Source: Lachnospiraceae bacterium (GTDB lineage: Bacteria > Bacillota > Clostridia > Lachnospirales > Lachnospiraceae). From it: a stretch of 57,170 nucleotides of DNA. Positions 19,268 to 45,465 of this stretch are shown piece after piece. The DNA lies in assembly GCA_016291405.1 (NCBI GenBank), contig JAEEXG010000010.1, positions 1-57,170 of the forward strand, read 5' to 3'. The translations under genes and the position numbers were made by a program. The notes under the pieces are model-generated. The model did no database searches. It saw only the letters and a program-made list of their open reading frames with translations, and was not told the origin of the DNA. Within the stretch, counting starts at the first letter, position 1, and the number at the start of each line of letters is the position of its first letter.

Positions 19268-19296
19268 TTGACAAACAAATTTCCAAGGTATATTGT
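19268..19296 (+). promoter_or_regulatory. Promoter of the dapF-dapL-carAB-purF operon
   Basis: TTGACA - 17 bp - TATTGT. The same arrangement (TTGACAAAC, 17-bp spacer, TATTGT) recurs before glnN, so transcripts begin only a few bases before the leader hairpin. Confidence 0.8.
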
Positions 19297-19305
19297 ACTT
19301 AACAA

Positions 19306-19348
19306 GAAGCAAAGGCGCTTCGGACTATGGTCCGAAGTGCCTTCTTTT
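19306..19348 (+). promoter_or_regulatory. ANTAR-type antiterminator/terminator leader upstream of dapF
   Basis: Hairpin GAAGC-[AAAGGC]-GCTTC at 19306-19321 has a hexaloop with A1 and G4. The alternative fold is a terminator: AAGGCGCTTCGGAC (19312-19325) pairs with 19330-19343, loop TATG, then CTTTT. The loop and 3' arm of the small hairpin are part of the terminator stem, so binding of an ANTAR protein to the small hairpin would prevent termination. Confidence 0.75.
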
Positions 19349-19376
19349 GTATGTAGAAGTTTAAAGGATACCGGGC

Positions 19377-20261
19377 ATGAAAGTAGATTTTGTTAAGATG
19401 GAAGGCTGCGGCAATGACTATGTGTACATTGACTGCGTAAAAGAGGAGTTTAAATACCCCTATAAATCGGATTTGGCGGTATGTATAAGTGATCGGCATT
19501 TCGGAGTCGGCTCCGACGGTCTTATTTTTGTAAATAAATCTGAAATCGCAGACTTTGAAATGGAAATGTATAATTCCGACGGCTCAAGAAGCGAAATGTG
19601 CGGAAACGGCATAAGATGCGTGGCAAAGCTTGTATATGACAAAGGCTATACCGATAAAAAGCACTTTACCATTGAAAGCATGGGAGCCATAAAGAAAATA
19701 TTCATTGAAGAGGAAGAAGATCATAAGGCAAATCTTATTACTGTAGATATGGGAGAGCCCATACTTACCCCTTCACTCATTCCGGTTTCTTTGGACACTG
19801 ATGCAAAAATAGCAAAGCAAGTGCCCATTTCAATTGATTTATTAAGCGCAAAGGCAACCTGCGTGTCAATGGGCAATCCTCACGCCGTGATTTTTACGGA
19901 TACAATGACAAGAAGCTGGGAAGATTTAAAAGCGCTTCCAATAGAAAGGCTCGGCCCCTCATTTGAAAACCACAAAATGTTTCCAAAACGCGTAAACACT
20001 GAATTTGTTAAGGTGCTTGATAAAGAAAACGTGGAAATGAGAGTGTGGGAGAGAGGCGCAGGGGAAACCTTGGCCTGCGGAACAGGGTGCTGCGCCACAG
20101 TGGTAGCCTGCGTTTTAAATGAAAGAACGGAAAGAAGAGTAACCGTTCACTTGCTTGGCGGAGATTTAAAGATTTACTGGAGCGAAGAAGACAATCACGT
20201 TTATATGACAGGTCCCGCAAAGACTGTATTTACGGGAAGTTTTGATACAAAGAAAAATTAG
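19377..20261 (+). CDS. dapF: Diaminopimelate epimerase
   Basis: 294 residues. The N-terminal MEGCGNDYVYID, first catalytic Cys in SEMCGNGIRC (~80) and second in ACGTGCCATVVAC (~232) are diagnostic. It converts LL- to meso-diaminopimelate for lysine and peptidoglycan. First gene of an operon continuing with dapL, carA, carB and purF, which gives the two last steps of the DapL variant of the pathway together. Weak AAAGGA ribosome site 8 bases before the ATG. Confidence 0.95.
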   Translation: MKVDFVKMEGCGNDYVYIDCVKEEFKYPYKSDLAVCISDRHFGVGSDGLIFVNKSEIADFEMEMYNSDGSRSEMCGNGIRCVAKLVYDKGYTDKKHFTIESMGAIKKIFIEEEEDHKANLITVDMGEPILTPSLIPVSLDTDAKIAKQVPISIDLLSAKATCVSMGNPHAVIFTDTMTRSWEDLKALPIERLGPSFENHKMFPKRVNTEFVKVLDKENVEMRVWERGAGETLACGTGCCATVVACVLNERTERRVTVHLLGGDLKIYWSEEDNHVYMTGPAKTVFTGSFDTKKN

Positions 20262-20292
20262 TGTTTACATTATGTAAACCAGAGGTATAAAT

Positions 20293-21468
20293 ATGAAAAT
20301 AAACAAAGATTACCTTAACTTAAAAGAAAGCTACCTTTTTGCGGACATCGCCGCAAGGGTAAGAAAGCACAAAGAAGAGCATGCGGATGCTGATATTATC
20401 AGCCTTGGAATCGGAGATGTCACAAAGCCTTTATCTAAGCCCATTATCGAAGCGCTAAATTCAGCAGTATCCGATATGGCAAGTGCCGACACATTTAAAG
20501 GATATGCTCCCGACAGAGGATATGAGTTTTTAAGAAGCAAGATTATTGAAAACGATTATAAAAAGCGCGGAATCGATTTAGATTTGGATGAAATCTTTGT
20601 ATCGGACGGAGCAAAGAGCGATTGCGGTAACATCCAGGAAATCTTTGATAAGGATAACGTGGTGGCAGTGCCGGATCCTGTTTACCCCGTATATGCAGAC
20701 ACAAATATTATGGCAGGAAGAAAGCTTGTTTATTTACCCTGCCTTAAAGAAAACGGATTTGTGCCCGAAATGCCTAAGGAAAAGGTTGACATAATATATC
20801 TATGCTTTCCTAATAACCCTACGGGCATGGTTATTACAAAAAATAAATTGCAGGAATTTGTCGATTACGCTATAAAGAATGAAGCGGTCATTATTTATGA
20901 CGCGGCTTATGAAGCTTATATAACGGATCCTTCGATTCCCCATTCTATTTATGAGTGTAAGGGGGCAAAAAGCGTTGCCATAGAGCTTCACTCATTTTCT
21001 AAGAATGCAGGCTTTACAGGCTTAAGACTTGGCTATAGCGTAGTGCCTAAGGAATTAAAGTGCGATGGGGTTTCTTTAAACTCATTATGGTTAAGACGTC
21101 ATTCAACAAAATATAACGGAGCCCCCTACATTGTGCAAAGAGCGGGCGAAGCGGTATATTCAGAAGTCGGAAAAGAAGCCGTAAAGAAGCAGGTTTCTGA
21201 ATACATGGAAAATGCCAAGGCTATTTACGATGGCTTAACATCAATGGGATATGAAGTATACGGTGGCAAGAACGCTCCGTACATTTGGCTTAAAACCCCC
21301 GATAATTTGTCGGGATGGGATTTCTTTGACCTTCTTTTAAAGAAAGCACAGGTTGTTGGCACCCCGGGAGAAGGCTTTGGAAGCTGCGGAGCCGGTTTCT
21401 TTAGACTGACTGCTTTTGCAAGCAAAGAAAACACAGAAAAAGCGCTTGAAAGAATAAGCAAGCTTTAA
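20293..21468 (+). CDS. dapL: LL-diaminopimelate aminotransferase
   Basis: 391 residues, class I/II PLP aminotransferase. PLP lysine in HSFSKNAGFTGLRLGY (~235), NPTG motif CFPNNPTGMVITK (~175), and phosphate-binding SDGAKSD (~100). The N-terminal DYLNLKESYLFADIAARV is the DapL type rather than AspC. It makes LL-DAP directly from tetrahydrodipicolinate and glutamate, so the cell needs no succinyl- or acetyl-branch enzymes. A 31-bp gap after dapF contains the ribosome site AGAGG. Confidence 0.93.
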   Translation: MKINKDYLNLKESYLFADIAARVRKHKEEHADADIISLGIGDVTKPLSKPIIEALNSAVSDMASADTFKGYAPDRGYEFLRSKIIENDYKKRGIDLDLDEIFVSDGAKSDCGNIQEIFDKDNVVAVPDPVYPVYADTNIMAGRKLVYLPCLKENGFVPEMPKEKVDIIYLCFPNNPTGMVITKNKLQEFVDYAIKNEAVIIYDAAYEAYITDPSIPHSIYECKGAKSVAIELHSFSKNAGFTGLRLGYSVVPKELKCDGVSLNSLWLRRHSTKYNGAPYIVQRAGEAVYSEVGKEAVKKQVSEYMENAKAIYDGLTSMGYEVYGGKNAPYIWLKTPDNLSGWDFFDLLLKKAQVVGTPGEGFGSCGAGFFRLTAFASKENTEKALERISKL

Positions 21469-21488
21469 GATATACAAGGGAGAATGAT

Positions 21489-22586
21489 ATGAACGGTCGC
21501 AAAAAAAGAAAGCTGGTCTTGGAGGACGGAAGCATTTTTGAAGGTGATTCCTTCGGAGCTAATTCGGATAAGCTTTCGGAAATCGTATTCAACACTTCAA
21601 TGGTGGGTTATCAGGAGATTTTATCGGATCTTTCCTATACCGACCAGGCAGTGGTGATGACATTTCCTCTAATCGGCAATTACGGAATCAATGATTCCGA
21701 TTTTGAGTCGCGTCACCCGGGGCTCAATGCTTTTATTGTGAAGGATTATTGTGATGCACCTTCACACCATGCTTTGGTTGAAGAACTCGAGCAAACCATG
21801 AAGCGCTACGATATAGCGGGTATCAGTGGCGTTGACACAAGGAAACTAACAAGAATTATACGTGAAAAAGGAAGCCTCAAGGCACTTATTACGGATGTTG
21901 ATACTCCGAATGATGAGTGCTTGAGGCTTATTTCTAATTTTGAATATAAAACCGACCAGGTTTTAAGGGCCACAAGAAAAGAAAGAGAGATTTTCCCCGC
22001 AAAGGAAGAAAAGTATAGGATTGTTGCAATAGACTGCGGCATGAAAATGAACATCGTAAACTGCTTAAACGACTTAGGGGTTTCTGTAACGGTTGTTCCT
22101 GAAAATACAACATCCGAAGAAATCTTAAGTTACAAGCCTGACGGCCTCTTTATTTCAAACGGCCCGGGGGATCCTGAAAATGCGGTAAATGCCATAAAGG
22201 CTGTAAAAGAGTTAAAAGGTAAGCTTCCCATATTCGGAATTTGCTTGGGACACCAGATAGTTTCTTTAGCCTACGGTGCAAAAACCTATAAGCTTAAATT
22301 TGGTCACAGAGGTGCAAACCACCCTGTTAAAAACTTAAAGACGGGGCTTGTGGAAATAACCTCACAGAACCATTCTTATGCGGTTGATGCGGATAGCTTA
22401 AAGGGCACAGGCCTTGAAGCCACACATATTAATTTGCTTGATAACACCATCGAAGGAGTGGAATGTAAGAAAGATAAGGTTTTTAGCGTTCAGTACCATC
22501 CGGAGAGCGCGCCGGGACCTACCGACGGAAGATACCTTTTTGATGAATTCCTGACTCTTTTAAAGGAGGCAAAGAAAAATGCCTAA
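21489..22586 (+). CDS. carA: Carbamoyl-phosphate synthase small (glutaminase) subunit
   Basis: 365 residues. N-terminal CPSase small domain (LVLEDGSIFEGDSFG, FNTSMVGYQEILSDLSY) and C-terminal class I glutamine amidotransferase: Cys nucleophile in FGICLGHQ (~255), His/Glu in VQYHPESAPGP (~338). It releases ammonia from glutamine for CarB. Ribosome site AAGGGAG. Overlaps carB by 8 bp, so the two subunits are translationally coupled. Confidence 0.95.
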   Translation: MNGRKKRKLVLEDGSIFEGDSFGANSDKLSEIVFNTSMVGYQEILSDLSYTDQAVVMTFPLIGNYGINDSDFESRHPGLNAFIVKDYCDAPSHHALVEELEQTMKRYDIAGISGVDTRKLTRIIREKGSLKALITDVDTPNDECLRLISNFEYKTDQVLRATRKEREIFPAKEEKYRIVAIDCGMKMNIVNCLNDLGVSVTVVPENTTSEEILSYKPDGLFISNGPGDPENAVNAIKAVKELKGKLPIFGICLGHQIVSLAYGAKTYKLKFGHRGANHPVKNLKTGLVEITSQNHSYAVDADSLKGTGLEATHINLLDNTIEGVECKKDKVFSVQYHPESAPGPTDGRYLFDEFLTLLKEAKKNA

Positions 22587-25500
22587 GCGAACTGATATAA
22601 AGAAAATTTTGGTTATAGGCTCAGGGCCTATTGTAATTGGTCAGGCCGCAGAGTTTGACTACGCAGGCACCCAAGGATGCCTTGCTTTAAAAGAAGAGGG
22701 GTACGAGGTTGTGCTTTGTAACTCAAACCCCGCAACAATAATGACCGATAACACGGTTGCAGACAAAGTCTACATGGAGCCTTTGACCCTTGAATATCTG
22801 GCAAAGATAATCCGCGTTGAAAGACCTGATGCGGTTTTAGCGGGCCTTGGCGGACAAACAGGCTTAAACCTTGCCATGCAGCTTGAAGAAGACGGCGTTT
22901 TAAAGCAATGCCGTTGCACCCTTCTTGGCACAAAGAAAGAAAGCATCGCCCTTGCGGAAGACAGGGAACTTTTTAAAAACATGTGTGAAGAAATCGGCGA
23001 GCCTGTCCTTAAATCGCTGGTTGTAAACACCATGGAAGATGGAATTGCCGCTGCAAAAGAAATAGGCTTCCCACTTGTGGTGCGCCCGGGATTTACTCTT
23101 GGCGGCACCGGAGGCGGCTTTGCTGAAAATGAAAAAGAGTATAAAGAGATACTTAAAAACGCCCTTGCTTTGTCTCCCGTAAACGAGGCTTTGATTGAAA
23201 AAAGCGTTAAGGGATACAAAGAAATCGAATACGAAGTAATAAGAGATGCAAATGATACAGCCCTTGTAATCTGTAACATGGAAAACATTGACCCTGTAGG
23301 CATTCATACAGGTGACTCGGCGGTTGTGTGCCCTTCCATGACACTTACAAACAATGAGTATCATATGCTTAGAGACTCAGCTTTAAAAATCATTAGACAC
23401 TTAAAAATTGAAGGGGGCTGTAACGTACAGTTCGCCTTGTCTCCTGATTCAAAGGATTATTACTTAATCGAAGTAAATCCCAGAGTCTCCCGTTCATCAG
23501 CCCTTGCATCAAAGGCAAGCGGATATCCTATTGCATGGGTTTCTGCAAAGATAGCGGTAGGCTTAACCTTAGAAGAAATAAGGCTTAAAAATACCCCTGC
23601 CTGCTTTGAACCGGCTCTAGACTACGTGGTAAGTAAACTGGCCAGATTTCCCTTTGATAAGTTTAGGGATGCTAACCCTACTTTAGGCACTCAAATGAAG
23701 GCTACGGGAGAAGTTATGAGCGTAGGCCGTACTTTTGAAGAAAGCTTCTTAAAAGCTGTTCGTTCCCTTGAAACAGGCCATGATTACTTAAGAGATAAGG
23801 GCTTGGTTCAAAAAAGCCTTGATGAATTGTATGAGTTTATAAAGATTGGCACGGATACACGTCTCTATGCTTTAGCAGAAATTTTACGTAAGGGCGGAAG
23901 CATTGAGACAATTTGTAAGAACACAGGAATCGATAAATTCTTTGTTGAAAAGTTTAAAAAGATCGTTGATAAGGAAGCTGATTTAAAGGCTAACCCTAAG
24001 GACTTATGTAAACTAAAAGAAGCAAAGAAGATGGGCTTTCCCGATACAGAAATTGCCCGCCTTTGGAATATGGACTTACGCGACTTGGAAGACTTTAGGC
24101 GTGAAAATCACATTAAGCCCGTATACAAGATGATTGACTCTTGTGCGTCCGAATTTAAGAGTTATATTCCCTATTTTTACTCTACCTACGAAGACGAAAA
24201 CGAGTCTATAGTAACAAACAATAAAAAGGTTATAGTGTTAGGTTCAGGCCCCATAAGAATCGGTCAGGGCGTAGAGTTTGACTATTCAACGGTTCATGCC
24301 ATTAAGACCATTAAGAGCCAGGGCTATGAAGCAATTATTATAAACAATAACCCTGAAACCGTTTCAACCGACTACACAACAGCGGATAAACTTTATTTCG
24401 AACCTCTTTGTGTAGAGGACGTAATGGATATTATCGAAATGGAAAAGCCCGACGGCGTTATAGTTTCTTTGGGCGGACAGACCGCAATCAACCTTGCAAA
24501 TCCTTTGCACGACAGAGGGGTTAAGATCATCGGCACCGACGTTGAAGCAATCGATAAGGCAGAGGACAGAGACTTATTTGAAAAGCTTTTGGAAGAGCTT
24601 AACATTCCAAAGCCTGAAGGATACGTGGCAACAACCATCGATGAAGGTTTAAAGATTGCAGAAAAGGTGGGCTATCCCGTCCTTGTGCGCCCTTCCTTTG
24701 TGCTTGGAGGCCGTGCTATGCAGATAGTATCAAAACCTTCAGAAATGATTCGCTACTTACAAAGCGCCGCGGAAGTGGACAAAGACCGCCCCGTCCTTGT
24801 GGATAAATACATAATGGGTAAGGAACTTGAAACCGACGCTATCTGTGACGGTAAAGACGTGTTTGTGCCGGGCATCATGGAACTTGTTGAGAGAACCGGT
24901 GTCCATTCGGGCGACTCAATAAGTGTGTACCCGCCCTTTACAGTGTCAGATAAGGTTAAAGAAACCATCCTAGATTACACAAAGAGGCTTGGCCTTGGCA
25001 TAGGAATCGTGGGACTTTTTAACATCCAGTTCATTGTTGACGGTGAAGATAACGTGTATGTTATCGAAGTTAATCCCCGCTCTTCAAGAACGGTTCCCTT
25101 TATATCAAAAGCAACGGGCGTGCGCCTTGCGGACATTGCCACAAAAGTTATTCTTGGTGTAAGTTTAAAAGAGCAGGATGTGCTTAAAGAAACAAGCCGC
25201 CATGACAGATATTACGTAAAAGTTCCTGCTTTCTCATTCTTAAAACTTAAGGGTATGGATTCTTATTTGTCACCTGAAATGAAGTCAACAGGTGAAGCTA
25301 TCGGATACGATAAAAAGCTTCATAGGGCTATGTATAAAGCACTTGTTGCTTCAGGTCTTAAGTTAAAGAATCACGGCACCATGATAGTTTCTTTGGCCGA
25401 TGAAGACAAAGTGGAAGCAATGCCCATAATTAAGGGATTTTACGACCTTGGATTTAACATTGAGGCTACCTCTCTTACGGGTAAATACCTTGCGGATTAC

Positions 25501-25755
25501 GGCATCAAAAATAAAGTAAGAAAGAAAATAAGCGAGGGAAGTAACGAAATTTTGGAAGCTATTGCCAGCGGTGATGTTAGCTACGTTATCAATACCAGAG
25601 CCATTCTTTCAGGGGTTCACTACGAAGACGGCGTCCTTATAAGGCAATGCGCCACACAAAATAACGTGACACTTTTCACATCTCTTGATACCTTAAGAGT
25701 GGTACTTAAAGTTTTACAGGAGCAGGATTTGTCTGTTTCTGAAATCTTTGACTAA
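22579..25755 (+). CDS. carB: Carbamoyl-phosphate synthase large subunit
   Basis: 1058 residues, standard length. Two ATP-grasp halves: GSGPIVIGQAAEFDYAGTQ near 14 and GSGPIRIGQGVEFDYSTVHA near 556, with metal-binding IEVNPRVSRSSALASKASG and IEVNPRSSRTVPFISKATG. C-terminal MGS-like allosteric domain (~930-1058). It makes carbamoyl phosphate for pyrimidines and arginine from bicarbonate, ammonia and two ATP. Ribosome site AAAGGAGG lies within the end of carA. Confidence 0.97.
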   Translation: MPKRTDIKKILVIGSGPIVIGQAAEFDYAGTQGCLALKEEGYEVVLCNSNPATIMTDNTVADKVYMEPLTLEYLAKIIRVERPDAVLAGLGGQTGLNLAMQLEEDGVLKQCRCTLLGTKKESIALAEDRELFKNMCEEIGEPVLKSLVVNTMEDGIAAAKEIGFPLVVRPGFTLGGTGGGFAENEKEYKEILKNALALSPVNEALIEKSVKGYKEIEYEVIRDANDTALVICNMENIDPVGIHTGDSAVVCPSMTLTNNEYHMLRDSALKIIRHLKIEGGCNVQFALSPDSKDYYLIEVNPRVSRSSALASKASGYPIAWVSAKIAVGLTLEEIRLKNTPACFEPALDYVVSKLARFPFDKFRDANPTLGTQMKATGEVMSVGRTFEESFLKAVRSLETGHDYLRDKGLVQKSLDELYEFIKIGTDTRLYALAEILRKGGSIETICKNTGIDKFFVEKFKKIVDKEADLKANPKDLCKLKEAKKMGFPDTEIARLWNMDLRDLEDFRRENHIKPVYKMIDSCASEFKSYIPYFYSTYEDENESIVTNNKKVIVLGSGPIRIGQGVEFDYSTVHAIKTIKSQGYEAIIINNNPETVSTDYTTADKLYFEPLCVEDVMDIIEMEKPDGVIVSLGGQTAINLANPLHDRGVKIIGTDVEAIDKAEDRDLFEKLLEELNIPKPEGYVATTIDEGLKIAEKVGYPVLVRPSFVLGGRAMQIVSKPSEMIRYLQSAAEVDKDRPVLVDKYIMGKELETDAICDGKDVFVPGIMELVERTGVHSGDSISVYPPFTVSDKVKETILDYTKRLGLGIGIVGLFNIQFIVDGEDNVYVIEVNPRSSRTVPFISKATGVRLADIATKVILGVSLKEQDVLKETSRHDRYYVKVPAFSFLKLKGMDSYLSPEMKSTGEAIGYDKKLHRAMYKALVASGLKLKNHGTMIVSLADEDKVEAMPIIKGFYDLGFNIEATSLTGKYLADYGIKNKVRKKISEGSNEILEAIASGDVSYVINTRAILSGVHYEDGVLIRQCATQNNVTLFTSLDTLRVVLKVLQEQDLSVSEIFD

Positions 25756-25764
25756 GGAGTAAAG

Positions 25765-27138
25765 ATGGATAAACTCAAAGAAAAATGCGGAGTTTTTGGC
25801 ATATTTACAAAGAACGGAAATGTTTCTTACGACATTTTCTACGGCCTCACCGCTTTGCAGCACAGAGGACAAGAGTCTGCGGGAATGGCGGTTTGCGATA
25901 CTGACGGAGAAAAGGGAAACATCGGATTTTACAAGAACATGGGCCTTGTAAGCGAAGTTTTCAGAGAAGATAAGCTAGCAGAGCTTAAGGGAAATATCGG
26001 CGTTGGGCATGTGCGCTATTCAACTACCGGCGGAAGCAAAATAGAAAACGCCCAGCCCGTTGTGTTTAACTATTCAAAGGGGACACTGGCAACCGTACAT
26101 AACGGAAACCTTGTTAACACGGATGCCTTAAGACAAGAGCTTTTTGACGAAGGATGTGTCCTTAGAAGCGACACTGATACAGAAGTTTTGGCCCTTCTTG
26201 TTGCCAAAGAACGCTCCCACACAAAGACTATACAAGAAGCCGTAGAAAGGGTTGCGGCAAAGATTGTGGGAAGCTATGCGATTATTATAATGAGCCCAAG
26301 AAAGCTTGTTGCAATGCGCGATCCCTTAGGTTTAAAACCTATGTGCATAGGCAAAAGAGGGGAGGATATTATCATTGCCTCTGAGTCTTGCGCATTGTCT
26401 TCAGTTGATGCTGAGTTTGTAAGAGATGTAGAGCCCGGTGAAATCATCACCGTTTCAAAAGACGGCATATCTTCGAACAAAAAGCTTTGCGGAAAGAAAG
26501 CCGCTCACTGTATTTTTGAATACATTTATTTTGCGAGACTAGACTCTGTAATAGACGGAAGAGCAGTCTATGAAGCCCGCCATAAAGCAGGGCAGATGCT
26601 TGCAAAGAATTACCCTGTTGAAGCAGACATTGTAACAGGAGTCCCTGATTCAGGCCTTGCTGCTGCGGAAGGGTATTCTGCATATTCGGGCATTCCCTTT
26701 GAACTTGCTTTTCATAAAAACAGTTACCTTGGAAGGACTTTTATTAAGCCCACGGATAAAGAGAGAAAAGCTGCGGTGCACCTTAAACTAAACGTTATTG
26801 AAGCTGCCGTTAAGGGTAAAAGAATCGTCATTATCGATGACTCTATAGTTCGCGGCACCACAATGGCTAATCTTATAAAGCTTTTAAAAGAAAAGGGAGC
26901 AAAAGAAGTGCACGTTCGCATCAGTTCTCCGCCCTTTTTACACCCTTGCTACTACGGAACCGATGTCCCCAGTAACAAAGAACTTATAGCCTCAAATAAC
27001 GGCACCGAAGATATAAGAAAACGTATCGGAGCAGATTCTTTGTACTATGCAAAAGTGGAAGATTTTAGCGAGATGGTAGGAGATTTGCCTATTTGCAAGG
27101 CTTGCTTTGACGGAAATTATCCTACAAAAAATTTTTAA
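25765..27138 (+). CDS. purF: Amidophosphoribosyltransferase
   Basis: 457 residues. Ntn-type glutaminase with catalytic Cys at position 8 (KEKCGVFGIF), implying removal of a 7-residue propeptide; QHRGQESAGM follows. The PRPP site is VIIDDSIVRGTT (~355). Cys residues consistent with the Fe-S type of Bacillus-like PurF occur in AHCIFEYIYF and near the C-terminus (PICKACFDG). First committed step of purine synthesis. It is unusual for purF to end a dap/car operon; all but the dap genes consume glutamine, consistent with shared nitrogen control. Confidence 0.95.
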   Translation: MDKLKEKCGVFGIFTKNGNVSYDIFYGLTALQHRGQESAGMAVCDTDGEKGNIGFYKNMGLVSEVFREDKLAELKGNIGVGHVRYSTTGGSKIENAQPVVFNYSKGTLATVHNGNLVNTDALRQELFDEGCVLRSDTDTEVLALLVAKERSHTKTIQEAVERVAAKIVGSYAIIIMSPRKLVAMRDPLGLKPMCIGKRGEDIIIASESCALSSVDAEFVRDVEPGEIITVSKDGISSNKKLCGKKAAHCIFEYIYFARLDSVIDGRAVYEARHKAGQMLAKNYPVEADIVTGVPDSGLAAAEGYSAYSGIPFELAFHKNSYLGRTFIKPTDKERKAAVHLKLNVIEAAVKGKRIVIIDDSIVRGTTMANLIKLLKEKGAKEVHVRISSPPFLHPCYYGTDVPSNKELIASNNGTEDIRKRIGADSLYYAKVEDFSEMVGDLPICKACFDGNYPTKNF

Positions 27139-27146: not shown

Positions 27147-27175
27147 TTGACAAACAAAAAACATGAGTATATTGT
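27147..27175 (+). promoter_or_regulatory. Promoter of glnN-amt
   Basis: TTGACA - 17 bp - TATTGT, same hexamers and spacer length as the dapF promoter. Confidence 0.8.
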
Positions 27176-27184
27176 ATAGCACAT

Positions 27185-27227
27185 AAAGCAAAGGCGCTTT
27201 AGGATAAATTCCTAAGGCGCCTTTTTC
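27185..27227 (+). promoter_or_regulatory. ANTAR-type antiterminator/terminator leader upstream of glnN
   Basis: Small hairpin AAAGC-[AAAGGC]-GCTTT at 27185-27200 with the A1/G4 hexaloop. Competing terminator: AAGGCGCTTTAGGA (27191-27204) with 27210-27223, loop TAAAT, then a T-run. The two folds share 27191-27200. Confidence 0.8.
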
Positions 27228-27257
27228 TTTACAAATTTTTGAAAGGGAGAAAATAAC

Positions 27258-29389: not shown

Positions 29390-29433
29390 TGCAAAGGCGC
29401 AGACAAACATAAAAGTCTGCGCCTTAATTTTTT
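29390..29433 (+). promoter_or_regulatory. ANTAR-type leader between glnN and amt
   Basis: TGC-[AAAGGC]-GCA (29390-29401) keeps the hexaloop but has only a 3-bp closing stem. Terminator: AAGGCGCAGAC (29394-29404) with 29415-29425 (perfect 11 bp), loop of ten bases, then TTTTTT. No promoter lies between glnN and this element, so it acts as an internal gate in the operon. Confidence 0.65.
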
Positions 29434-31314: not shown

Positions 31315-31343
31315 TTGACAAACTCTGCACCACTGTATACAAT
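31315..31343 (+). promoter_or_regulatory. Promoter of the asnB-pyrG-gltBD-GS-ANTAR operon
   Basis: TTGACA - 17 bp - TACAAT; TTGACAAAC again matches the other two nitrogen promoters. Confidence 0.8.
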
Positions 31344-31353: not shown

Positions 31354-31404
31354 AGAGCGACAAAGGCGTCGCGGTTAACTACCGTGCCTTTGTCGCTCTT
31401 TTTA
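31354..31404 (+). promoter_or_regulatory. ANTAR-type antiterminator/terminator leader upstream of asnB
   Basis: Small hairpin GCGAC-[AAAGGC]-GTCGC at 31357-31372. Terminator: 31354-31367 (AGAGCGACAAAGGC) pairs perfectly over 14 bp with 31386-31399, with an inner CGGT/ACCG stem, then CTTTTT. Here the terminator uses the 5' arm and loop, whereas in the dapF and glnN leaders it uses loop and 3' arm. Confidence 0.8.
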
Positions 31405-33003: not shown

Positions 33004-33094
33004 TTTACATAACGTGAGATAACCGGCAATGTCTTGGCAGGGCAGTCGGATAAACAATAAACAAAGTTTTTTTAAAAAGAGGGAGAAATTAGAT

Positions 33095-34699: not shown

Positions 34700-34709
34700 G
34701 GAGATAAAA

Positions 34710-37700: not shown

Positions 37701-39254
37701 CAGTTAATCTATGACCTTAAAAATGCAAACAAGTATGCACGAATTTCCGTAAAGCTTGTTGCGGAAGCAGGGGTTGGAACAATTGCGGCAGGTGTTGCAA
37801 AAGCAGGTGCCGGAGTAATCCTTATTTCAGGTTATGACGGAGGAACCGGCGCAGCTCCCATTAGTTCAATCCATAACGCAGGAATACCTTGGGAAATGGG
37901 ACTTTCTGAGACACATCAGACTCTTATCCAAAACGGCTTAAGAGACAAGGTTGTAATAGAAACAGACGGAAAGCTTATGAGCGGTAAAGACGTTGCCATT
38001 GCGGCAATGCTTGGTGCGGAAGAGTTTGGCTTTGCAACAGCTCCTTTGGTTACTCTAGGATGCGTCATGATGAGAGTATGTAATCTTGACACATGCCCCA
38101 TGGGAATCGCCACTCAGAATCCCGAACTACGAAAGAACTTTTCAGGTAAGCCTGAATACGTAGAAAACTTCATGCGCTTTATAGCAAGAGAATTACGAGA
38201 GTATATGGCAAAGCTTGGTGTAAAGAGCGTTGATGAACTGGTAGGCAGAACAGACTTACTTAAGATGAGAGATAACTTAAGTAAGAGAGAAAAGAAACTT
38301 GATTTATCAAGAATTCTTTCTTATGAATCCGTAGGCCTTGGAAAGAAAGATTACTATGATTTCAAGCTTGAAAATACAGTTGATGAAAGAAAGCTTCTTA
38401 CGGATAAAGAAATCTTACAGGCAGCAGAAGGAAACGGTTCTGTAAAGAAAAAGGTTAAAGTCTTAAATACAGACAGAACCTTCGGAACCCTTCTTGGAGC
38501 TTACATTGTAAGAAAGAACCACAAAGGATTAAAGGAAGACAGCATTACATTAGAGTGTGAAGGTTCGGGCGGACAAAGCTTTGGAGCATTTATTCCAAAG
38601 GGCTTAACCATCAGCCTAACGGGCGATTCCAATGACTATTTCGGAAAAGGTTTATCAGGCGGTAAGCTTTGCGTGAAGGTTCCCGCCAATGCCGCATATA
38701 AGTCTCATGAAAACGTAATCATCGGTAATGTTGCTTTGTACGGAGCCACATCCGGACAAGCCTACATTGCGGGCGTAGCGGGCGAAAGATTCTGCGTGCG
38801 TAATTCAGGAGCTGTTGCGGTGGTTGAAGGCGTAGGAGAGCACGGATGCGAATACATGACAGGTGGTCGCGCCGTAATCTTAGGTCCTACAGGAAAGAAC
38901 TTTGCAGCCGGCATGAGCGGTGGTATTGCATATGTTCTTGATGAAGATAATTGCTTATACAAAAACCTTAACAAAGAACTTGTATTGATGGAAAAGCTTG
39001 AGCATAAGGTTGATAAAGAAGAGCTTAAGGAAATGCTTAAAAACCACGTTAAGTACACAGGCTCTCAAAAGGCCAAAGAAGTGCTTGATAACTTTGATGA
39101 ATATGTACCCAAGTTTAAAAAGATCATCCCTGCGGATTATAAAAAGCTTCTTACTTTAATCAGTAAGTACGAAGAGCAGGGTGAAGAAAAAGAAGAAGCC
39201 GAAATTGATGCATTTTATGAAAGCATCGGTAAAAAGAAGGGAGAAGGGGTATGA
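34710..39254 (+). CDS. gltB: Glutamate synthase large subunit
   Basis: 1514 residues, normal length. Propeptide then Cys nucleophile in DNCGIGAVCDV (~20); amidotransferase domain to ~430; central domain; FMN-binding synthase domain (~810-1190) with GEGGESDERIESQGTKNDRS, KPGEGGHLPAKKV and GYDGGTGAAP; Cys residues CNLDTCPMGIATQNPELR for the 3Fe-4S centre (~1130); C-terminal beta-helix GXGXG domain (~1250-1450). Makes two glutamates from glutamine and 2-oxoglutarate with GltD. Overlaps gltD by 4 bp. Confidence 0.97.
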   Translation: MENGPQNKTMYDPSFEHDNCGIGAVCDVNGKKSHAVVDDALKIVENLEHRAGKDAKGETGDGVGILTQIPHKFFAKVLKDTDIVLPKEKEYGVGVFFFPKEELKLSQAKKMFEVIVEKEGLKFLGWRKVPTNEKVLGFKALESCPEIYQGFIARPAGLKTDLEFDRKLYVIRRVFEQSNDNTYVPSLSSRTIVYKGMFLVGQLRLFYNDLLDKSYESAIAMVHSRFSTNTNPSWHRAHPNRMLVHNGEINTIRGNVDKMLAREETMFTDAFSPEDMTRVLPVIPSEGSDSAMLDNALEFMVMSGMDLPLAAMILIPEPWDHNDTISDKVRDFYGYYATMMEPWDGPASIMFSDGDVMGAILDRNGLRPSRYYVMDDGRIILSSEVGVLDIDESHVIKKERIHPGKMLLVDLKLHKIYEDSEIKEKYASKEPYGEWIDCNTIKLKDLKIPNVKPVSYSDEELTKLQKAFGYTYEEYAEEIMSMALNKTEHIGAMGVDTPLAVLSSQYRPLFDYFKQSFAQVTNPPIDAAREKIVTSTAVYVGKNGNLLSENPENCRVLKIQNPILTDLDMLKIKAMDKEGFKVVTIPIIYYKKMPIERVLDHLFVEVDRAYKSGADILILSDRGVDENHVALPSLLAVAAVHRHLVQTKKCTAMSLILESGEPREVHHFATLLGFGVSAVNPYLAHASIGKLIEDELLNKDYYAAVDDYDKAVLQGIIKIASKMGISAIQSYQGSRIFEAVGIGSSLIDKYFTGTVSRIGGIELEDIAEQTDALHSKAFDSLGLSSNLTISSVGRHKMRAQGETHRYNPKTIHMLQCASREGNYDKFKEYTKMVDAEETGYLRSLLEFNYPEKGIDLSLVESEDEIVKRFKTGAMSYGSISKEAHETLAIAMNHLQGKSNSGEGGESDERIESQGTKNDRSSAIKQVASGRFGVTERYLSSAKEIQIKMAQGAKPGEGGHLPAKKVYPWIAKTRHSTPGVSLISPPPHHDIYSIEDLAQLIYDLKNANKYARISVKLVAEAGVGTIAAGVAKAGAGVILISGYDGGTGAAPISSIHNAGIPWEMGLSETHQTLIQNGLRDKVVIETDGKLMSGKDVAIAAMLGAEEFGFATAPLVTLGCVMMRVCNLDTCPMGIATQNPELRKNFSGKPEYVENFMRFIARELREYMAKLGVKSVDELVGRTDLLKMRDNLSKREKKLDLSRILSYESVGLGKKDYYDFKLENTVDERKLLTDKEILQAAEGNGSVKKKVKVLNTDRTFGTLLGAYIVRKNHKGLKEDSITLECEGSGGQSFGAFIPKGLTISLTGDSNDYFGKGLSGGKLCVKVPANAAYKSHENVIIGNVALYGATSGQAYIAGVAGERFCVRNSGAVAVVEGVGEHGCEYMTGGRAVILGPTGKNFAAGMSGGIAYVLDEDNCLYKNLNKELVLMEKLEHKVDKEELKEMLKNHVKYTGSQKAKEVLDNFDEYVPKFKKIIPADYKKLLTLISKYEEQGEEKEEAEIDAFYESIGKKKGEGV

Positions 39255-40705
39255 GTGATATGAAGAGACCTGATTTTTTTGAATTTCATGAAAGCCCCGA
39301 TTTAAAGAAGCAGATCGAAGAGGCAAAGAAATGCAATAACTGCGGTGTGCCCTTTTGTCAGGCAGGAACTTTGATTGCAGGCATGACTTCGGGATGTCCT
39401 TTAAATAACCTGGTGCCTGAAACTAACAGCTTGGTTTCACAGGGAAACTTTAAGCAGGCTTATATAAGGCTTTCAAAGACACACAGCTTCCCTGAGTTTA
39501 CTTCAAGGGTTTGCCCTGCACTTTGCGAAGCAGCCTGCACCTGCGGCCTTCACACATCGCCCATTCCCACTAAGGAAAATGAGCGTGCAATAATTGACTA
39601 TGCTTTTGAAAATGACTTGGTTAAGGAAGTAAAACCTGCCACCCGTACGGGAAAGAAGATAGCCATTATAGGAAGCGGCCCTTCAGGCCTTGCAGCAGCA
39701 CAGCTTCTTAATATGAGAGGCCACAGTGTAACGGTTTATGAAAGATCCGATCGTCCCGGAGGTCTACTTCGCTACGGAATCCCTAACATGAAGTTAGACA
39801 AACGAGTGTTAGACAGACGTATTGGTTTGCTAACGGATGCAGGGGTTACATTTAAGTGTAGCGTTGATGTGGGTAAAGACGTAAAAGCCAAGGAATTACT
39901 TAAAGAATATGACAGAGTCATTCTTTGCTGCGGAGCTTCAAATCCAAGAGACATTAAGGCTCCCGGAAGAGATGCAAAAGGAATCTACTTTGCGGTCGAT
40001 TTCTTAAAAGAAGTAAGTAAAAAGCTTATGGACTTAAACTATGATAACGACGCTTTGGTTGACTTTGGAGGCTTTTCTTTTAAAAGCCTTAAAGGAAAAA
40101 GCGTTGTGGTTATAGGTGGCGGTGATACGGGAAATGACTGTGTGGGAACGGCTGTTAGATTAGGAGCAGATGCTGTAACACAGCTTGAAATGATGCCTAA
40201 GCCCCCTGAATGTAGAAGCTGCACAAATCCTTGGCCCGAATGGCCGAAAGTTTTAAAGACAGATTACGGTCAGTTAGATGCCATTAAAGCATTCGGACAG
40301 GACCCGAGAATCTTTGAAACTACGGTAAAAGAATTTGTTAAAGGTAAAGACGGTAACGTGTCTTCTGTTAAAACCGTTAAGCTTTCTTTTGAAAAAGATC
40401 CTGCTACGGGAAGAAACGTAATGAAAGAGGTAGCGGGAAGCGAAGCTGAGATAAAGGCAGACCTTGTGCTTATTGCAGCAGGATTTTTAGGCGCACAAAG
40501 TTACATAGTCTCTGATTTTGGTGTAGAATGTAATGAAAGAACCAATGTATCCACTAAGGAAGGCGACTTTAAGACAAGTGTGGAAAGAGTATTTTCCGCA
40601 GGCGATATGAGAAGAGGCCAGTCATTGGTAGTCTGGGCCATTTCCGAAGGAAGAAAGGTTGCAGCCAAGGTGGATGAGTCGCTTATGGGCTATACCAACT
40701 TGTAG
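39251..40705 (+). CDS. gltD: Glutamate synthase small subunit
   Basis: 484 residues. N-terminal Cys clusters CNNCGVPFCQAG and CPALCEAACTCG for 4Fe-4S centres, FAD-binding AIIGSGPSGLAAAQLL (~140), and NADPH-binding VVVIGGGDTGNDCVGTA (~285), ending with FSAGDMRRGQSLVVWAI. Passes electrons from NADPH to GltB. The start ATG overlaps the stop of gltB (ATGA), so translation is coupled for 1:1 assembly. Confidence 0.97.
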   Translation: MSDMKRPDFFEFHESPDLKKQIEEAKKCNNCGVPFCQAGTLIAGMTSGCPLNNLVPETNSLVSQGNFKQAYIRLSKTHSFPEFTSRVCPALCEAACTCGLHTSPIPTKENERAIIDYAFENDLVKEVKPATRTGKKIAIIGSGPSGLAAAQLLNMRGHSVTVYERSDRPGGLLRYGIPNMKLDKRVLDRRIGLLTDAGVTFKCSVDVGKDVKAKELLKEYDRVILCCGASNPRDIKAPGRDAKGIYFAVDFLKEVSKKLMDLNYDNDALVDFGGFSFKSLKGKSVVVIGGGDTGNDCVGTAVRLGADAVTQLEMMPKPPECRSCTNPWPEWPKVLKTDYGQLDAIKAFGQDPRIFETTVKEFVKGKDGNVSSVKTVKLSFEKDPATGRNVMKEVAGSEAEIKADLVLIAAGFLGAQSYIVSDFGVECNERTNVSTKEGDFKTSVERVFSAGDMRRGQSLVVWAISEGRKVAAKVDESLMGYTNL

Positions 40706-40717: not shown

Positions 40718-41953
40718 ATGAACACAAAAGATGACATTTTAAACATTATAGAAGAGGAAGATATTGAATTCATCCGCCTTCAATTTACCGATGTTTTCGG
40801 CAATTTAAAGAATGTTGCCGTAACTCCGGGGCAAATAGACAGAGTGGTGGAGGGAAGATATTCATTCGAAGGAAGCGCAGTATTTGACGGCCTTACGGAT
40901 GAGACTCTTTATTTAAAACCTGACCTTGATACTTTTGTGATTTTACCCTGGCGCCCTAAGCAGGGAAAGGTAGGAAAGCTTCTTTGCAGCGTCTATACCG
41001 CTGACGGAAAGCCATTTGAACTTTGCCCAAGAAACATTTTAAAAAGAAACCTTTCTGTACTTGATGAAAAGGGAATGGATGCCTTTATAGACCCTGAGTG
41101 TGAGTTTTTCTTATTCCACACCGATGAACAGGGACTTGCAACAACCATTACTCATGAGCAGGCAGGCTATATGGATGTAGGCCCCGTGGACCTTGGAGAA
41201 AATGCTCGTCGTGACATGGTTCTTACCCTTGAAGATATGGGATTTGACATTAAATCTTCTCACCATGAAAAGGCACCCGGACAGCATGAAATCGACTTTA
41301 GAGGTGACTGTGGCGTTAAGGCTGCCGATGATGTAATGACCTTTAAATTTGCTGTAAGAAGTGTTGCAAAAGGCTTTGGCCTTCATGCCACATTTATGCC
41401 AAGCCCCATTCAGGATGCACCGGGATCCGGCATGCATCTTAGGGTTTCTTTGTACAAAGACAACAGAAATATATTTAATTCAAATAAAGAAATCGCTGAA
41501 AAGTTTGCTGCGGGAGTGCTTAAGTTTGCTCCCGAAATATGCGCATTTTCAAATCCCTTGGTTAACTCTTACAAGCGTCTAAAAAACTGGAAGGTTTCAA
41601 AGAAACCCGCTCCCGATAAGAACCTTGTTTGCGTTTGCGATGATTACGGCGAAAGAAGCGTGGAAGTAAGATTCCCCGATCCTTCCGCAAATATTTACGC
41701 AGTTATTTCTTTAATTTTAAGAGCAGGACTTAAAGGAATCGATGAAAACATTGATTTAGCAAGTGTTCCTTTCAAGGGCCTTCCCGGAAATTTAAAGGAT
41801 GCTTTATTACTTGCGCATGACAGCGAGTTTGTAAAAGAAGTTTTGGGCGATAAGTTTACACAGACTTATGTAAACCAAAAGTTCCTGGAGTGGGATGAAT
41901 ATCTTAACAAAGTCTCTGACTGGGAAATCGAAAAGTACTTATTAAAAGTTTGA
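40718..41953 (+). CDS. Glutamine synthetase type I homologue, probably catalytically impaired
   Basis: 411 residues versus ~440 for Bacillus-type GlnA. The first 285 residues follow GlnA closely (FIRLQFTDVFGNLKNV, PECEFFLF, SSHHEKAPGQHEIDF, GSGMHLRVSL). After NPLVNSYKRL, the expected GYEAP Glu-flap and the NRSPLIRVP segment, which supply the catalytic Glu and substrate-binding Arg, are replaced by a Lys-rich stretch and KNLVCVCDDYGERS; RVE.R.PDP then resumes the family pattern as VEVRFPDPSAN. Synthesis activity is therefore doubtful. Position directly before the ANTAR regulator gene suggests a sensing partner, as GS regulates GlnR/TnrA in Bacillus. Confidence 0.85.
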   Translation: MNTKDDILNIIEEEDIEFIRLQFTDVFGNLKNVAVTPGQIDRVVEGRYSFEGSAVFDGLTDETLYLKPDLDTFVILPWRPKQGKVGKLLCSVYTADGKPFELCPRNILKRNLSVLDEKGMDAFIDPECEFFLFHTDEQGLATTITHEQAGYMDVGPVDLGENARRDMVLTLEDMGFDIKSSHHEKAPGQHEIDFRGDCGVKAADDVMTFKFAVRSVAKGFGLHATFMPSPIQDAPGSGMHLRVSLYKDNRNIFNSNKEIAEKFAAGVLKFAPEICAFSNPLVNSYKRLKNWKVSKKPAPDKNLVCVCDDYGERSVEVRFPDPSANIYAVISLILRAGLKGIDENIDLASVPFKGLPGNLKDALLLAHDSEFVKEVLGDKFTQTYVNQKFLEWDEYLNKVSDWEIEKYLLKV

Positions 41954-41963: not shown

Positions 41964-42509
41964 ATGGGAAGTGTAATTGTAGCCATTCCCAATTTGGATA
42001 ATGCCCAAAAGATCGGCGACATACTTAAAAAGCATGGGTTTACGCCGGATGCTTTGTGCACCCTTGGCTCGAAAGTGCTAAGGAAAGCAGGTGAGCTTGA
42101 GTTTGGCATCGTGATTTGCACAAAGCGCCTTAAAGACATGAGCTATACCGAGCTTTATGAGTATTTGCCCGAGTATTTTGAAGTGCTTTTGTTAAGTTCC
42201 GATACCGACGATTACAAGCCAAAAGACGGCATTATGAGGCTTTCAAATCCTTTCAGGACTGCAGATTTGATAAATACCGTGGATATGATGCTTCAAAGGC
42301 TCTCTTCCAAGGTTAAGAAAAATAAAAAGCGTCCCGTAAGAAGCGTTGAAGAGCAAAAGCAGATTGAAGAGGCTAAGCATCTTTTGATGGAAAGAAACGA
42401 CATGACGGAGCCCGAAGCCTTTAGATACATACAAAAAACAAGCATGGATACCGGCCGCACAATGGTAGAGTCGGCGCAGATGATTCTAATGCTTAATTGG
42501 GAAAGATAG
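41964..42509 (+). CDS. ANTAR-domain RNA-binding antiterminator (NitR-like)
   Basis: 181 residues. Residues ~1-115 have a receiver-like fold, but the strand-3 position that normally carries the phospho-acceptor Asp reads FGIVICTKRL, and the N-terminal acidic pair is also missing, so it cannot be phosphorylated in the usual way. Residues ~122-178 are a clear ANTAR domain: EEQKQIEEAKHLLMERNDMTE, then PEAFRYIQKTSMDTGRTM and a final VESAQMILM helix. ANTAR proteins bind hairpins with A1/G4 hexaloops and block terminators. Last gene of the asnB operon, 10 bp after the GS homologue, itself under such a leader, so autoregulation is likely. A NitR-type ANTAR regulator next to glnA is known in solventogenic clostridia. 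Confidence 0.9.
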   Translation: MGSVIVAIPNLDNAQKIGDILKKHGFTPDALCTLGSKVLRKAGELEFGIVICTKRLKDMSYTELYEYLPEYFEVLLLSSDTDDYKPKDGIMRLSNPFRTADLINTVDMMLQRLSSKVKKNKKRPVRSVEEQKQIEEAKHLLMERNDMTEPEAFRYIQKTSMDTGRTMVESAQMILMLNWER

Positions 42510-42522: not shown

Positions 42523-42554
42523 AAAAAGAACTAGGTTTAACCCTAGTTCTTTTT
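42523..42554. terminator. Bidirectional terminator after the ANTAR gene
   Basis: Stem AAAAAGAACTAGG / CCTAGTTCTTTTT, loop TTTAAC. Its right arm contains the stop codon of the convergent esterase gene. Confidence 0.92.
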
Positions 42555-43451: not shown

Positions 43452-43586
43452 ATTAATTTCCTTTCATAATTTCATGAGGGATTATTAAGAATTATCACCC
43501 TAGTTTCTTCAGATTGACAGATTATATTTTAGATTATAAGACAAGAGTACCAATGAGTACAGAAAAAACAATCTATGAGGGATAAT

Positions 43587-44045: not shown

Positions 44046-44131
44046 GCCTTTTGATTTATTTTCAATCGCAATATTATGTAGTATTATATTGCTATGTCTA
44101 AAAAATAAATGGTATTTCGGGGAGTGGATGA

Positions 44132-45349
44132 ATGAAGAAATCCGGTAAGATATTAGCCACAATAGGAGTACTTGCGTTTCTTACAGTAGTGGGAGCGTTT
44201 GTTTTCTATGTGATATCACAGATTCTGGGAAAGGCGGAACCTAAGCCTGTGGATACTTTAACCGAGACTCCTATCGAGATGCCGGTTTCTTCAAACGAAA
44301 TAAAAGAAGAAGTTACGGATGTTTCCGCACAGGAAGAAACTGTTTCTGAAAATGAGGGAGAAAGCGTTTCTGAAAACGAACCTGAAGTTATTGAAGAAGT
44401 AAAGGAACCTGAACCTGCTCCGGAAGCGCCTAAGGAAGAGCCATCGACAGAAGTCATCAATGATACAATGGCTCCGATTTTCTTGACGTTTTCAGGCTCT
44501 CCACAGGTAAAGGTAGGAGATGCTTTTGACATTCATAAATATGTAGGATATGCGGACGATGTGGACAGAGAGGTTGACATAACTATCAATGGAACAGTGG
44601 ATACATCAGTTGTGGGAGCATATCCTATTTCTATTGTCTTAACGGATGACGCGGGCCACACCACGGTTAAAGACATGACCGTAAATGTGGTAACTGACAT
44701 TGTCTCGGCGCCGCCTGTCACTATTCCCGAAACATTTGCAGATTTTATTGCAAACTACAAAACCGATTCAACGAGCGTCGGAATCGACGTATCAAGATGG
44801 CAAAATGAGATAGACTTTTCAAGAGTTGCCGCAGCAGGTTGCGAATTTGCATACATCCGAATCGGCGGATTCGACGACGGTGAGCTATACACTGACAGAT
44901 ACTACTATCAGAACATTCAGAATGCCAAGGCTGCAGGCCTTAAAGTAGGAATCTATTGGCACGCGGAAGATAAAAATCCCGAAGAAGTAAGGGCCTGCGT
45001 TAACTATTTAATGGCGGTTCTTAACGGAGAACACTTAGACTTTCCAATTGTTTATGACTGGGAAGACTTTAAAAACTTTGAGCGTTACGGCATGAACCTT
45101 TATGACTTAAATGAAAACTATGCCACCTTTGAAAGAGAAGTGGAGAAGTTTGGATACAGTGCATGCTTATATTCAAGTAAAAACTATATGTTAAATGCTT
45201 GGATTACGGAGAAAAAGAATCCAATCTGGCTAGCCCACTACACATCGGCTACAAACTATCAAGGTCCCTACTTTATGTGGCAGCAATCCTGCTGGGGCCA
45301 AATCGATGGTATAGCGGGAGATGTGGATTTTGATGTTTGGTATTATTGA
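44132..45349 (+). CDS. Membrane-anchored GH25 lysozyme with Ig-like domain
   Basis: 405 residues. N-terminal membrane helix (~7-30) without a clear cleavage site, then a ~70-residue Glu/Pro/Ser-rich linker with VSENE repeats. An Ig-like/DUF5011-type domain follows (TMAPIFLTFSG..., to VVTD, ~110-190), then a GH25 muramidase domain (~205-405): GIDVSRWQNEIDF with the catalytic Asp, AYIRIGGFDDG, IVYDWEDF with the acidic pair, and a C-terminal WQQSCWGQIDGI strand. It cleaves the glycan backbone of peptidoglycan outside the membrane, probably in wall remodelling. Ribosome site GGGGAG. Confidence 0.92.
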   Translation: MKKSGKILATIGVLAFLTVVGAFVFYVISQILGKAEPKPVDTLTETPIEMPVSSNEIKEEVTDVSAQEETVSENEGESVSENEPEVIEEVKEPEPAPEAPKEEPSTEVINDTMAPIFLTFSGSPQVKVGDAFDIHKYVGYADDVDREVDITINGTVDTSVVGAYPISIVLTDDAGHTTVKDMTVNVVTDIVSAPPVTIPETFADFIANYKTDSTSVGIDVSRWQNEIDFSRVAAAGCEFAYIRIGGFDDGELYTDRYYYQNIQNAKAAGLKVGIYWHAEDKNPEEVRACVNYLMAVLNGEHLDFPIVYDWEDFKNFERYGMNLYDLNENYATFEREVEKFGYSACLYSSKNYMLNAWITEKKNPIWLAHYTSATNYQGPYFMWQQSCWGQIDGIAGDVDFDVWYY

Positions 45350-45386
45350 TGTAAGGTAAATGACAATAATTTAACGCACAAAAGTG

Positions 45387-45415
45387 TTGACGTACTAAAG
45401 TGCTGTTGCTATAAT
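45387..45415 (+). promoter_or_regulatory. Promoter of the AGCS symporter gene
   Basis: TTGACG - 17 bp - TATAAT, with the same GTGTTGAC context as the glnN promoter. Confidence 0.8.
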
Positions 45416-45425
45416 CTATTCTAAG

Positions 45426-45465
45426 ATGTCCAAAGGCGGATGTGTTGCCGTCTTTGGGCGTTTTT
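45426..45465 (+). promoter_or_regulatory. ANTAR-type antiterminator/terminator upstream of a glycine riboswitch
   Basis: ATGTCC-[AAAGGC]-GGATGT hairpin (45426-45443; two wobble pairs) with the shared hexaloop. Terminator: CCAAAGGCGG (45430-45439) with CCGTCTTTGG (45448-45457), followed by GCGTTTTT. The glycine aptamer starts ~10 bases later. Confidence 0.72.

Follow-up and report, generated by a model that had tools for sequence, protein, structure and literature searches.

The locus analysed here raises the question of whether a leader with a single hexaloop can serve as the target of an ANTAR antitermination protein. It lies in a stretch of 57,170 nucleotides (the window) from contig JAEEXG010000010.1 of a Lachnospiraceae bacterium, in which the leaders of dapF, glnN, amt, asnB and agcS each contain a small hairpin with the loop AAAGGC and in which an ANTAR protein is encoded directly 3' of glnA. 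A preliminary description of this DNA had joined the five leaders and the protein into a local nitrogen regulon, and had remarked on the single hexaloop per leader as unusual. Dual-hexaloop ANTAR RNAs and their link to nitrogen genes are already known (Ramesh, 2012), as is ANTAR control of the glutamine synthetase and glutamate synthase (GS/GOGAT) genes as such; NitR of Clostridium saccharobutylicum is described as an ANTAR protein capable of antitermination that induces these genes upon nitrogen limitation (reviewed in PMC6316151). What appears to be new, and the real finding, is the attenuator with one hexaloop. We conclude that the leaders are very probably NitR-type attenuators with one 5'-proximal hexaloop, antiterminated by the glnA-linked ANTAR protein.

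Five leader hairpins overlap intrinsic terminators

All five hairpins are present where the preliminary description had placed them, and each has the loop AAAGGC, a hexanucleotide with A at position 1 and G at position 4 (A1/G4) on a stem of at least 3 bp, as in the definition of Ramesh (2012). In each of them the loop and the 3' arm are shared with an intrinsic terminator of -18.8 to -31.1 kcal/mol, which agrees with the earlier claim and with the overlap of hexaloop hairpin and terminator that Ramesh (2012) describes. Folded alone, the hairpins reach -1.1 to -6.5 kcal/mol. Since the bases are shared and the terminator is far stronger, the two structures should be mutually exclusive, with the terminator expected as the default. 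A strict scan of both strands of the window (A1/G4 hexaloop, stem of at least 3 bp, terminator of -18 kcal/mol or lower with at least 11 pairs) gave seven sites, four of them with a stem of at least 5 bp, versus means of 0.25 (maximum 2) and 0.025 (maximum 1) in 40 dinucleotide shuffles. Besides the five leaders, the seven comprise one at 7497 and the dapF leader read on its minus strand; those with the longer stem are the dapF, glnN, asnB and agcS leaders. An Rfam search of the whole window at gathering scores returned only a glycine riboswitch and one tRNA. A match at E<=2 over the glnN leader, from a scan of positions 19200-46000, scored 31.3 of 58 bits and was regarded as chance.

The leaders of dapF, glnN, asnB and agcS have near-consensus -35/-10 pairs that end 9, 8, 13 and 10 nt before the hairpin, respectively; the preliminary description had remarked that in at least three leaders the start site leaves no room for a second hairpin. 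For amt no convincing promoter was found (best candidate 7/12 matches), indicating that the amt hairpin probably lies inside a glnN-amt transcript. In none of the five leaders do the 60 nt before the hairpin contain a second A1/G4 hexaloop.

We propose that each leader would act as a transcription attenuator in which polymerase starts a few bases before the small A1/G4 hexaloop hairpin. By default, the loop and 3' arm of the weak hairpin would be absorbed into the much stronger terminator and transcription would stop. Binding of the hexaloop by the ANTAR protein, which is glnA-linked, of the NitR type and built with a pseudo-receiver, would stabilise the hairpin and permit read-through into the nitrogen and amidotransferase genes. 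The close spacing of the genes from asnB through the ANTAR gene places the latter in the run behind the asnB hexaloop, and read-through at this leader would include the operon of the ANTAR gene itself and provide positive feedback. Recruitment and antitermination would both depend on one hexaloop, located close to where the transcript begins. We infer activity of the protein at low glutamine, with the signal perhaps passed on by contact with glutamine synthetase and not by phosphorylation.

Stems covary and loops are constrained in relatives

Leaders in relatives were collected from named genomes scanned with an ANTAR alignment, from which the best 80 of 585 loci were taken. A scan of these loci and the window for the loop AANG[GA][CT] on a stem of at least 3 bp together with a terminator gave 92 matches, 54 of which precede homologues of the window genes. 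Ten of the other 38 were added from reading of the downstream open reading frames (gdhA 4, pyrG 3, aspS-like 2, purA 1); on visual inspection the last 28 were judged not leader-like and left out, two of them (L093, L147) lying just 3' of the ANTAR gene. The final set contains 64 leaders from 43 of the 80 loci and the window, located before glnA (20), pyrG (13), glnN (5), gltB (5), asnB (4), gdhA (4), carA (3), purF (3), agcS (2), aspS-like genes (2), and dapF, amt and purA (1 each). As these leaders were chosen by their genes, the functional coherence within the set is circular.

The preliminary description had named missing stem covariation in relatives as a possible refutation. The 55 distinct rows among the 64 leaders exhibit a stem covariation score of 0.593, versus 0.251 +/- 0.026 in shuffles; with slid partners the score does not exceed 0.227. 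Selection had demanded pairing only at the three inner positions; at the outer three, both partners are changed in 29, 14 and 16 of the 55 rows. When the hairpin was not required, AANGG[CT] loops in terminators upstream of target genes had a stem of at least 3 bp in 45 of 63 cases, versus 6 of 133 for 11 loop patterns altered at position 1, 2, 4 or 5. Among 125 intergenic hexaloop-terminators with any loop and a stem of at least 4 bp, the A1/G4 class accounts for 43 and the next class for 14. The closing pair is C-G in 64/64 leaders, in agreement with the closing-pair sequence demand reported for EutV. Median energies are -24 kcal/mol for the terminators versus -3 kcal/mol for the hairpins, with the overlap itself being a construction of the scan.

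Each leader has one hexaloop

The single hexaloop of the window leaders also holds in relatives, where a second one is no commoner than chance. Specifically, a scan by the published definition (at least 3 bp, A1, G4), run without a known dual leader as positive control, found a second A1/G4 hexaloop within 60 nt upstream in 6/54 leaders versus 6.4 in shuffles, and at a spacing like that of P1, the recruitment hairpin of dual leaders, in 2/64 versus 2.9. Downstream of the hairpin there is a slight excess (6/54 versus 2.9), and three of these six cases are similar glnA leaders (L122, L134, L138). Promoters with at least 10/12 matches precede 44/54 leaders (0.9 in shuffles, maximum 3) and 46/64 of the final set (1.0 in shuffles); at a laxer cut of 8 the count is 51/54 versus 19.6. 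In 33 of the 44 good predicted promoters the -10 element ends 5-13 nt before the hairpin, and in the other 11 it ends 16-29 nt before. Transcription usually starts about 7 nt after the -10 element. Thus, in most leaders the hairpin is predicted to begin at about +1 to +7.

A similar arrangement is seen in loci found with a covariance model (R1, below). Of 29 such loci examined in a sample of the class, 27 have a match near the model match, in 26 with a stem of 3-8 bp that carries an AANG loop. Two of the 29 have a second hexaloop, located 38 and 42 nt upstream. Model-found loci in the relatives have few second hexaloops, and by reading these lie in or before the -10 region. Loci from other families show a like single-hexaloop arrangement. 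In three genomes, pairs of model matches lie 75-99 nt apart and are possible tandem attenuators (G292:C34 5576/5655, G029:C6 109944/110019, G007:C99 57489/57588).

These results bear on the possibility that the leaders are ordinary dual-hexaloop targets whose P1 was missed because transcription starts further upstream or because P1 is degenerate. The start sites are predicted from sequence, and the 11 leaders with the wider spacing would leave more room before the hairpin. However, the upstream second hexaloop stays at the shuffle level, three quarters of the good promoters end close to the hairpin and loci of other families look alike, and we regard this explanation as unlikely. The two tandem hexaloops with a short linker described by Ramesh (2012) are no more frequent in these leaders than in shuffles, which strictly places the element outside the dual-hexaloop family, even if it appears to work like a member of it. 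The leader sequences fit the minimal motif of Walshe et al. (2022; PMC8934654), a single hexaloop with G4.

The element co-occurs with ANTAR proteins and precedes nitrogen genes

The preliminary description had suggested a covariance-model search of this genome and its relatives. Model R1 was applied with a cut-off of E<=0.01 for relatives and E<=0.005 for the class sample; it loses the dapF, amt and agcS leaders of the window despite their being training rows, so the genome counts are lower bounds. Both samples include the genome of the window, and may include genomes that gave training rows; the tables behind the Fisher tests were compiled by hand. The element was found in 34/60 relatives, 30/38 of those with an ANTAR-protein match versus 4/22 of those without (Fisher p 7e-6). 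When the comparison is confined to the order's other families (24 genomes), it occurs in 6/9 with ANTAR versus 0/15 without (p 6e-4). One of the four ANTAR-negative relatives with the element (G022) has a PF03861 match and the other three are incomplete (64-85%). In the class sample the element is present in 57/243 genomes, and 134/243 match ANTAR profile A1 at E<=0.001, a few weak matches covering the receiver part only. A profile match is found in 53/57 element-positive versus 81/186 element-negative genomes (p 3e-12). At least 24/72 elements, in at least 23/57 genomes, have an ANTAR gene no more than 20 kb away, the genome of the window included.

The best evidence for a nitrogen regulon comes from the 58 model-found loci in relatives and class, since they were picked by the RNA model and not by gene; some of the genomes behind them are close relatives of one another. 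A hairpin is seen by scan in 55, and 45 precede glnN (20), glnA (9), asnB (6), amt (4), gdhA (2), gltB (2), carA or dapF. The nitrogen and amidotransferase content of the proposed regulon is thus upheld, whereas its description as local is not, for the element recurs through the class. In L163 and L219, which belong to two different families, the element precedes genes that by reading of their translations are chemoreceptor-like, an unexpected kind of target.

The ANTAR protein lacks a phospho-acceptor

The protein encoded at 41964-42509 matches PF03861 with 65.3 bits (cut-off 27.3), and no other PF03861 match was found in the assembly, which spans 2.8 Mb and is 99% complete. In 77/80 loci the ANTAR gene lies 3' of glnA within 175 nt; in one the distance is 338 nt and two are cut by contig ends. 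The nearest named locus among the best 80 is that of a Lachnospiraceae metagenome-assembled genome (L072), with an ANTAR protein 97% identical. Profile comparison ranks Rv1626, EutV, NasR and AmiR first, and fold comparison with Foldseek ranks Rv1626 and EutV first and AmiR at 23. The AlphaFold model (mean pLDDT 85.5, pTM 0.63) shows a receiver-like domain followed by a long helix and then the helices of the ANTAR domain; its domain orientation is not trusted, since the whole-chain Foldseek matches to Rv1626 and EutV have an rmsd of 14-16 A.

At the phospho-acceptor position (EutV Asp54, from alignment) Asp occurs in 0/37 relatives. This makes activation by phosphorylation unlikely and a partner or ligand likely. 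Glutamine synthetase would be the obvious candidate partner, given the gene neighbourhood and the parallel with Bacillus TnrA (PMC6316151). Among the RNA contacts of EutV listed by Walshe et al. (2022; PMC8934654), Lys149, Glu160 and Met172 are kept in 37/37, the Tyr164 position is F, Y or H in 37/37, and Lys143 is kept in 11/37.

The co-occurrence also bears on whether the hairpin is a real antiterminator bound by some protein other than the ANTAR protein. Binding by the latter is predicted from sequence comparison, and the element also occurs in a few genomes in which no ANTAR match was found. Against this stand the A1/G4 loop, which is the published ANTAR signature, the co-occurrence and neighbourhood with ANTAR genes, and the finding of one ANTAR gene in this genome, located in the gene run behind one of the elements. 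We consider another binder very unlikely.

A further explanation is that binding does not cause read-through but makes the mRNA more or less stable at its 5' end, or acts on a second RNA hairpin in trans. The hairpin seems to lie near the 5' end, and in the crystal the EutV dimer touches two hexaloops of different RNA molecules (PMC8934654). However, the hairpins overlap far stronger terminators, an overlap that in the collected leaders is built into the scan, and the characterised eut, nas and ami leaders act by antitermination (PMC3369931), which makes this explanation very improbable indeed. It is scarcely credible that the hairpins are accidents of A-rich bidirectional terminators, in which A runs before GGC..GCC arms give functionless AAAGGC loops: the bare hexamer is mildly enriched in the window (70 versus 51), another window terminator at 53032 has an AAAGGA loop and a candidate on contig C70 of the same genome (L028) has an AAAGGC loop on a 3 bp stem with a promoter of only 7/12 matches, but the stems covary, the closing pair is invariant, the hairpins sit right behind promoters and altered loops rarely have a stem.

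Observations that weigh against the proposed control

Several observations weigh against antitermination from a single hexaloop by the ANTAR protein. The P1 hairpin is needed in vivo for EutV (PMC3369931), and a longer linker abolished EutV antitermination in vitro (PMC8934654); together these results suggest that a single hexaloop might not suffice. In the protein, the Arg168 position is Gln and the Asn173 position Asp in 37/37 relatives, Arg142 is kept in 3/37, Lys147 in 6/37, and Arg175 and Arg177 in 0/37, and the EutV mutant N173A/R175A/R177A lost binding (Walshe et al., 2022; PMC8934654). Among the window leaders, that of amt is the weakest, having a 3 bp stem and no clear promoter. At the three outer stem positions, pairing is absent in 9, 21 and 29 of the 55 rows.

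The distribution of the element is also imperfect. Even at E<=1, R1 recovers only two of the five window leaders in their own genome. Eight of the 38 relatives with an ANTAR protein have no model match, and 4/57 element-positive class genomes (G076, G092, G096, G273) have no ANTAR protein by profile or PF03861; in G273 a strong hexaloop attenuator (L243) precedes a purC-like gene. Thirteen of the 58 model-found loci are without a listed target or without a hairpin. Directly upstream of glnA, the scan detects the element in 26/74 loci with at least 300 nt visible, of which at least three (L075, L078, L132) look doubtful, and does not detect it in 48/74. By eye, many glnA genes among these 48 lie behind gltD, and L141 and L149 have a hairpin that fails the T-run rule. 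There is no such excuse for L115, L118, L129 and L142. The glnA leaders of these four loci share another similar stretch by eye, and a different control may act there.

Genes behind the leaders and further elements in the genome

The features of the window are listed in Table 1, where carB (22579-25755) and gltB (34710-39254) are named from position and size only. The agcS gene is seemingly under two leader regulators in series, the hexaloop terminator followed by a glycine riboswitch aptamer.

Table 1. Positions in the window of the leader elements, predicted promoters and associated genes.
Feature	Position	Strand	Details
Predicted promoter, dapF-dapL-carA-carB-purF operon	19268..19296	+	TTGACA, 17 nt, TATTGT
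dapF leader terminator, overlapping	19305..19348	+	-25.9 kcal/mol
dapF leader hexaloop hairpin	19306..19321	+	stem GAAGC/GCTTC, 5 bp; loop AAAGGC 19311-19316
dapF, dapL, carA, carB, purF	19377..27138	+	closely spaced, behind dapF leader
Predicted promoter, glnN	27147..27175	+	TTGACA, 17 nt, TATTGT
glnN leader hexaloop hairpin	27184..27201	+	stem TAAAGC/GCTTTA, 6 bp; loop 27190-27195
glnN leader terminator, overlapping	27184..27231	+	-26.3 kcal/mol
glnN	27258..29357	+	type III glutamine synthetase
amt leader hexaloop hairpin	29390..29401	+	stem TGC/GCA, only 3 bp, -1.1 kcal/mol; loop 29393-29398
amt leader terminator, overlapping	29394..29425	+	-18.8 kcal/mol
amt	29451..31157	+	ammonium transporter; PF00909 with C-terminal P-II domain PF00543 fused
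Predicted promoter, asnB-pyrG-gltB-gltD-glnA-ANTAR gene run	31315..31343	+	TTGACA, 17 nt, TACAAT
asnB leader terminator, overlapping	31354..31399	+	-31.1 kcal/mol
asnB leader hexaloop hairpin	31357..31372	+	stem GCGAC/GTCGC, 5 bp; loop 31362-31367
asnB, pyrG, gltB, gltD	31426..40705	+	behind asnB leader; one run with glnA and ANTAR gene
glnA	40718..41953	+	glnA-type glutamine synthetase, directly 5' of ANTAR gene
ANTAR protein gene	41964..42509	+	181 aa; receiver-like domain (phospho-Asp absent), long helix, ANTAR domain at C terminus
Predicted promoter, agcS	45387..45415	+	TTGACG, 17 nt, TATAAT
agcS leader terminator, overlapping	45423..45464	+	-23.9 kcal/mol
agcS leader hexaloop hairpin	45426..45443	+	stem ATGTCC/GGATGT, 6 bp, two G-U; loop 45432-45437
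Glycine riboswitch aptamer	45465..45551	+	RF00504, 57.7 bits; between agcS attenuator and agcS start codon
agcS	45553..47076	+	sodium:alanine symporter family

Elsewhere in the genome, elements were sought with two pattern searches and the covariance model, followed by the hairpin-terminator scan. Three further promoter-proximal hexaloop-terminators were found, all on contig C71 (4819, 5619, 10371); they precede genes for a class I glutamine amidotransferase/peptidase C26 (promoter 10/12), a protein with a PPDK_N domain (9/12) and an ABC transporter ATPase (11/12). Raw pattern counts are not enriched (33 versus 38 in the reversed control, and 30 versus 31), indicating that only hairpin and terminator combined set the sites apart. 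After re-scanning of 60 pattern-match loci, the window leaders, the three C71 sites, the C70 site and a few weak or opposite-strand matches remain; three further pattern matches had no locus for re-scan. This list may be incomplete, as one pattern misses stems like those of amt and agcS and the other sees AAAGGC only.

Relation to known ANTAR systems

More tentatively, and with somewhat less than even confidence, we suggest that a Clostridia-wide clade of glnA-linked pseudo-receiver ANTAR proteins may antiterminate from a single 5'-terminal hexaloop, with P1 replaced by the 5' position or by a longer stem and glutamine synthetase relaying the glutamine signal. If true, the P1 recruitment hairpin, held to be obligatory, would be dispensed with in this clade. 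Walshe et al. (2022; PMC8934654) report that one hexaloop is enough for binding and hold two to be necessary for antitermination, leave the extent of single-hexaloop use open, and expect single sites where the time limit set by transcription is absent. A natural set of one-hexaloop attenuators makes this question directly testable, the 57/243 class genomes being a lower bound. We found no one-hexaloop ANTAR attenuator in the literature searched, in which subscription papers are mostly missing, and a single search of titles and abstracts for ANTAR and Lachnospiraceae returned no nitrogen regulon study. The predicted targets would constitute a first map of the nitrogen regulon for Lachnospiraceae.

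The leaders resemble those of EutV of Enterococcus faecalis, and of NasR/nasF and AmiR/amiE, in the A1/G4 hexaloop, the closing-pair demand and the terminator that overlaps the hairpin. However, leaders of the EutV type have two hexaloops (eut linkers are 5-12 nt), both of which matter in EutV, whereas the leaders here have one. EutV is also phosphorylated, unlike the protein described here with its missing phospho-Asp. Actinobacterial ANTAR RNAs have likewise been searched for as dual stem loops (PMC8164766). The protein is like AmiR in having its ANTAR domain behind a pseudo-receiver, as indicated by the profile match and by the description of AmiR (PMC8934654). AmiR is controlled by AmiC; here the neighbour is glnA, and the partner would be another protein or a ligand. 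The glycine riboswitch (RF00504) is a separate element behind the agcS attenuator. In gene order and targets the protein resembles NitR, a clostridial ANTAR regulator of GS/GOGAT genes encoded next to glnA; the ANTAR gene likewise follows glnA in nearly all of the loci analysed here. In contrast to the GS/GOGAT targets of NitR, the set here is wider and takes in asnB, pyrG, carA, purF, dapF, gdhA, amt, agcS and purA.

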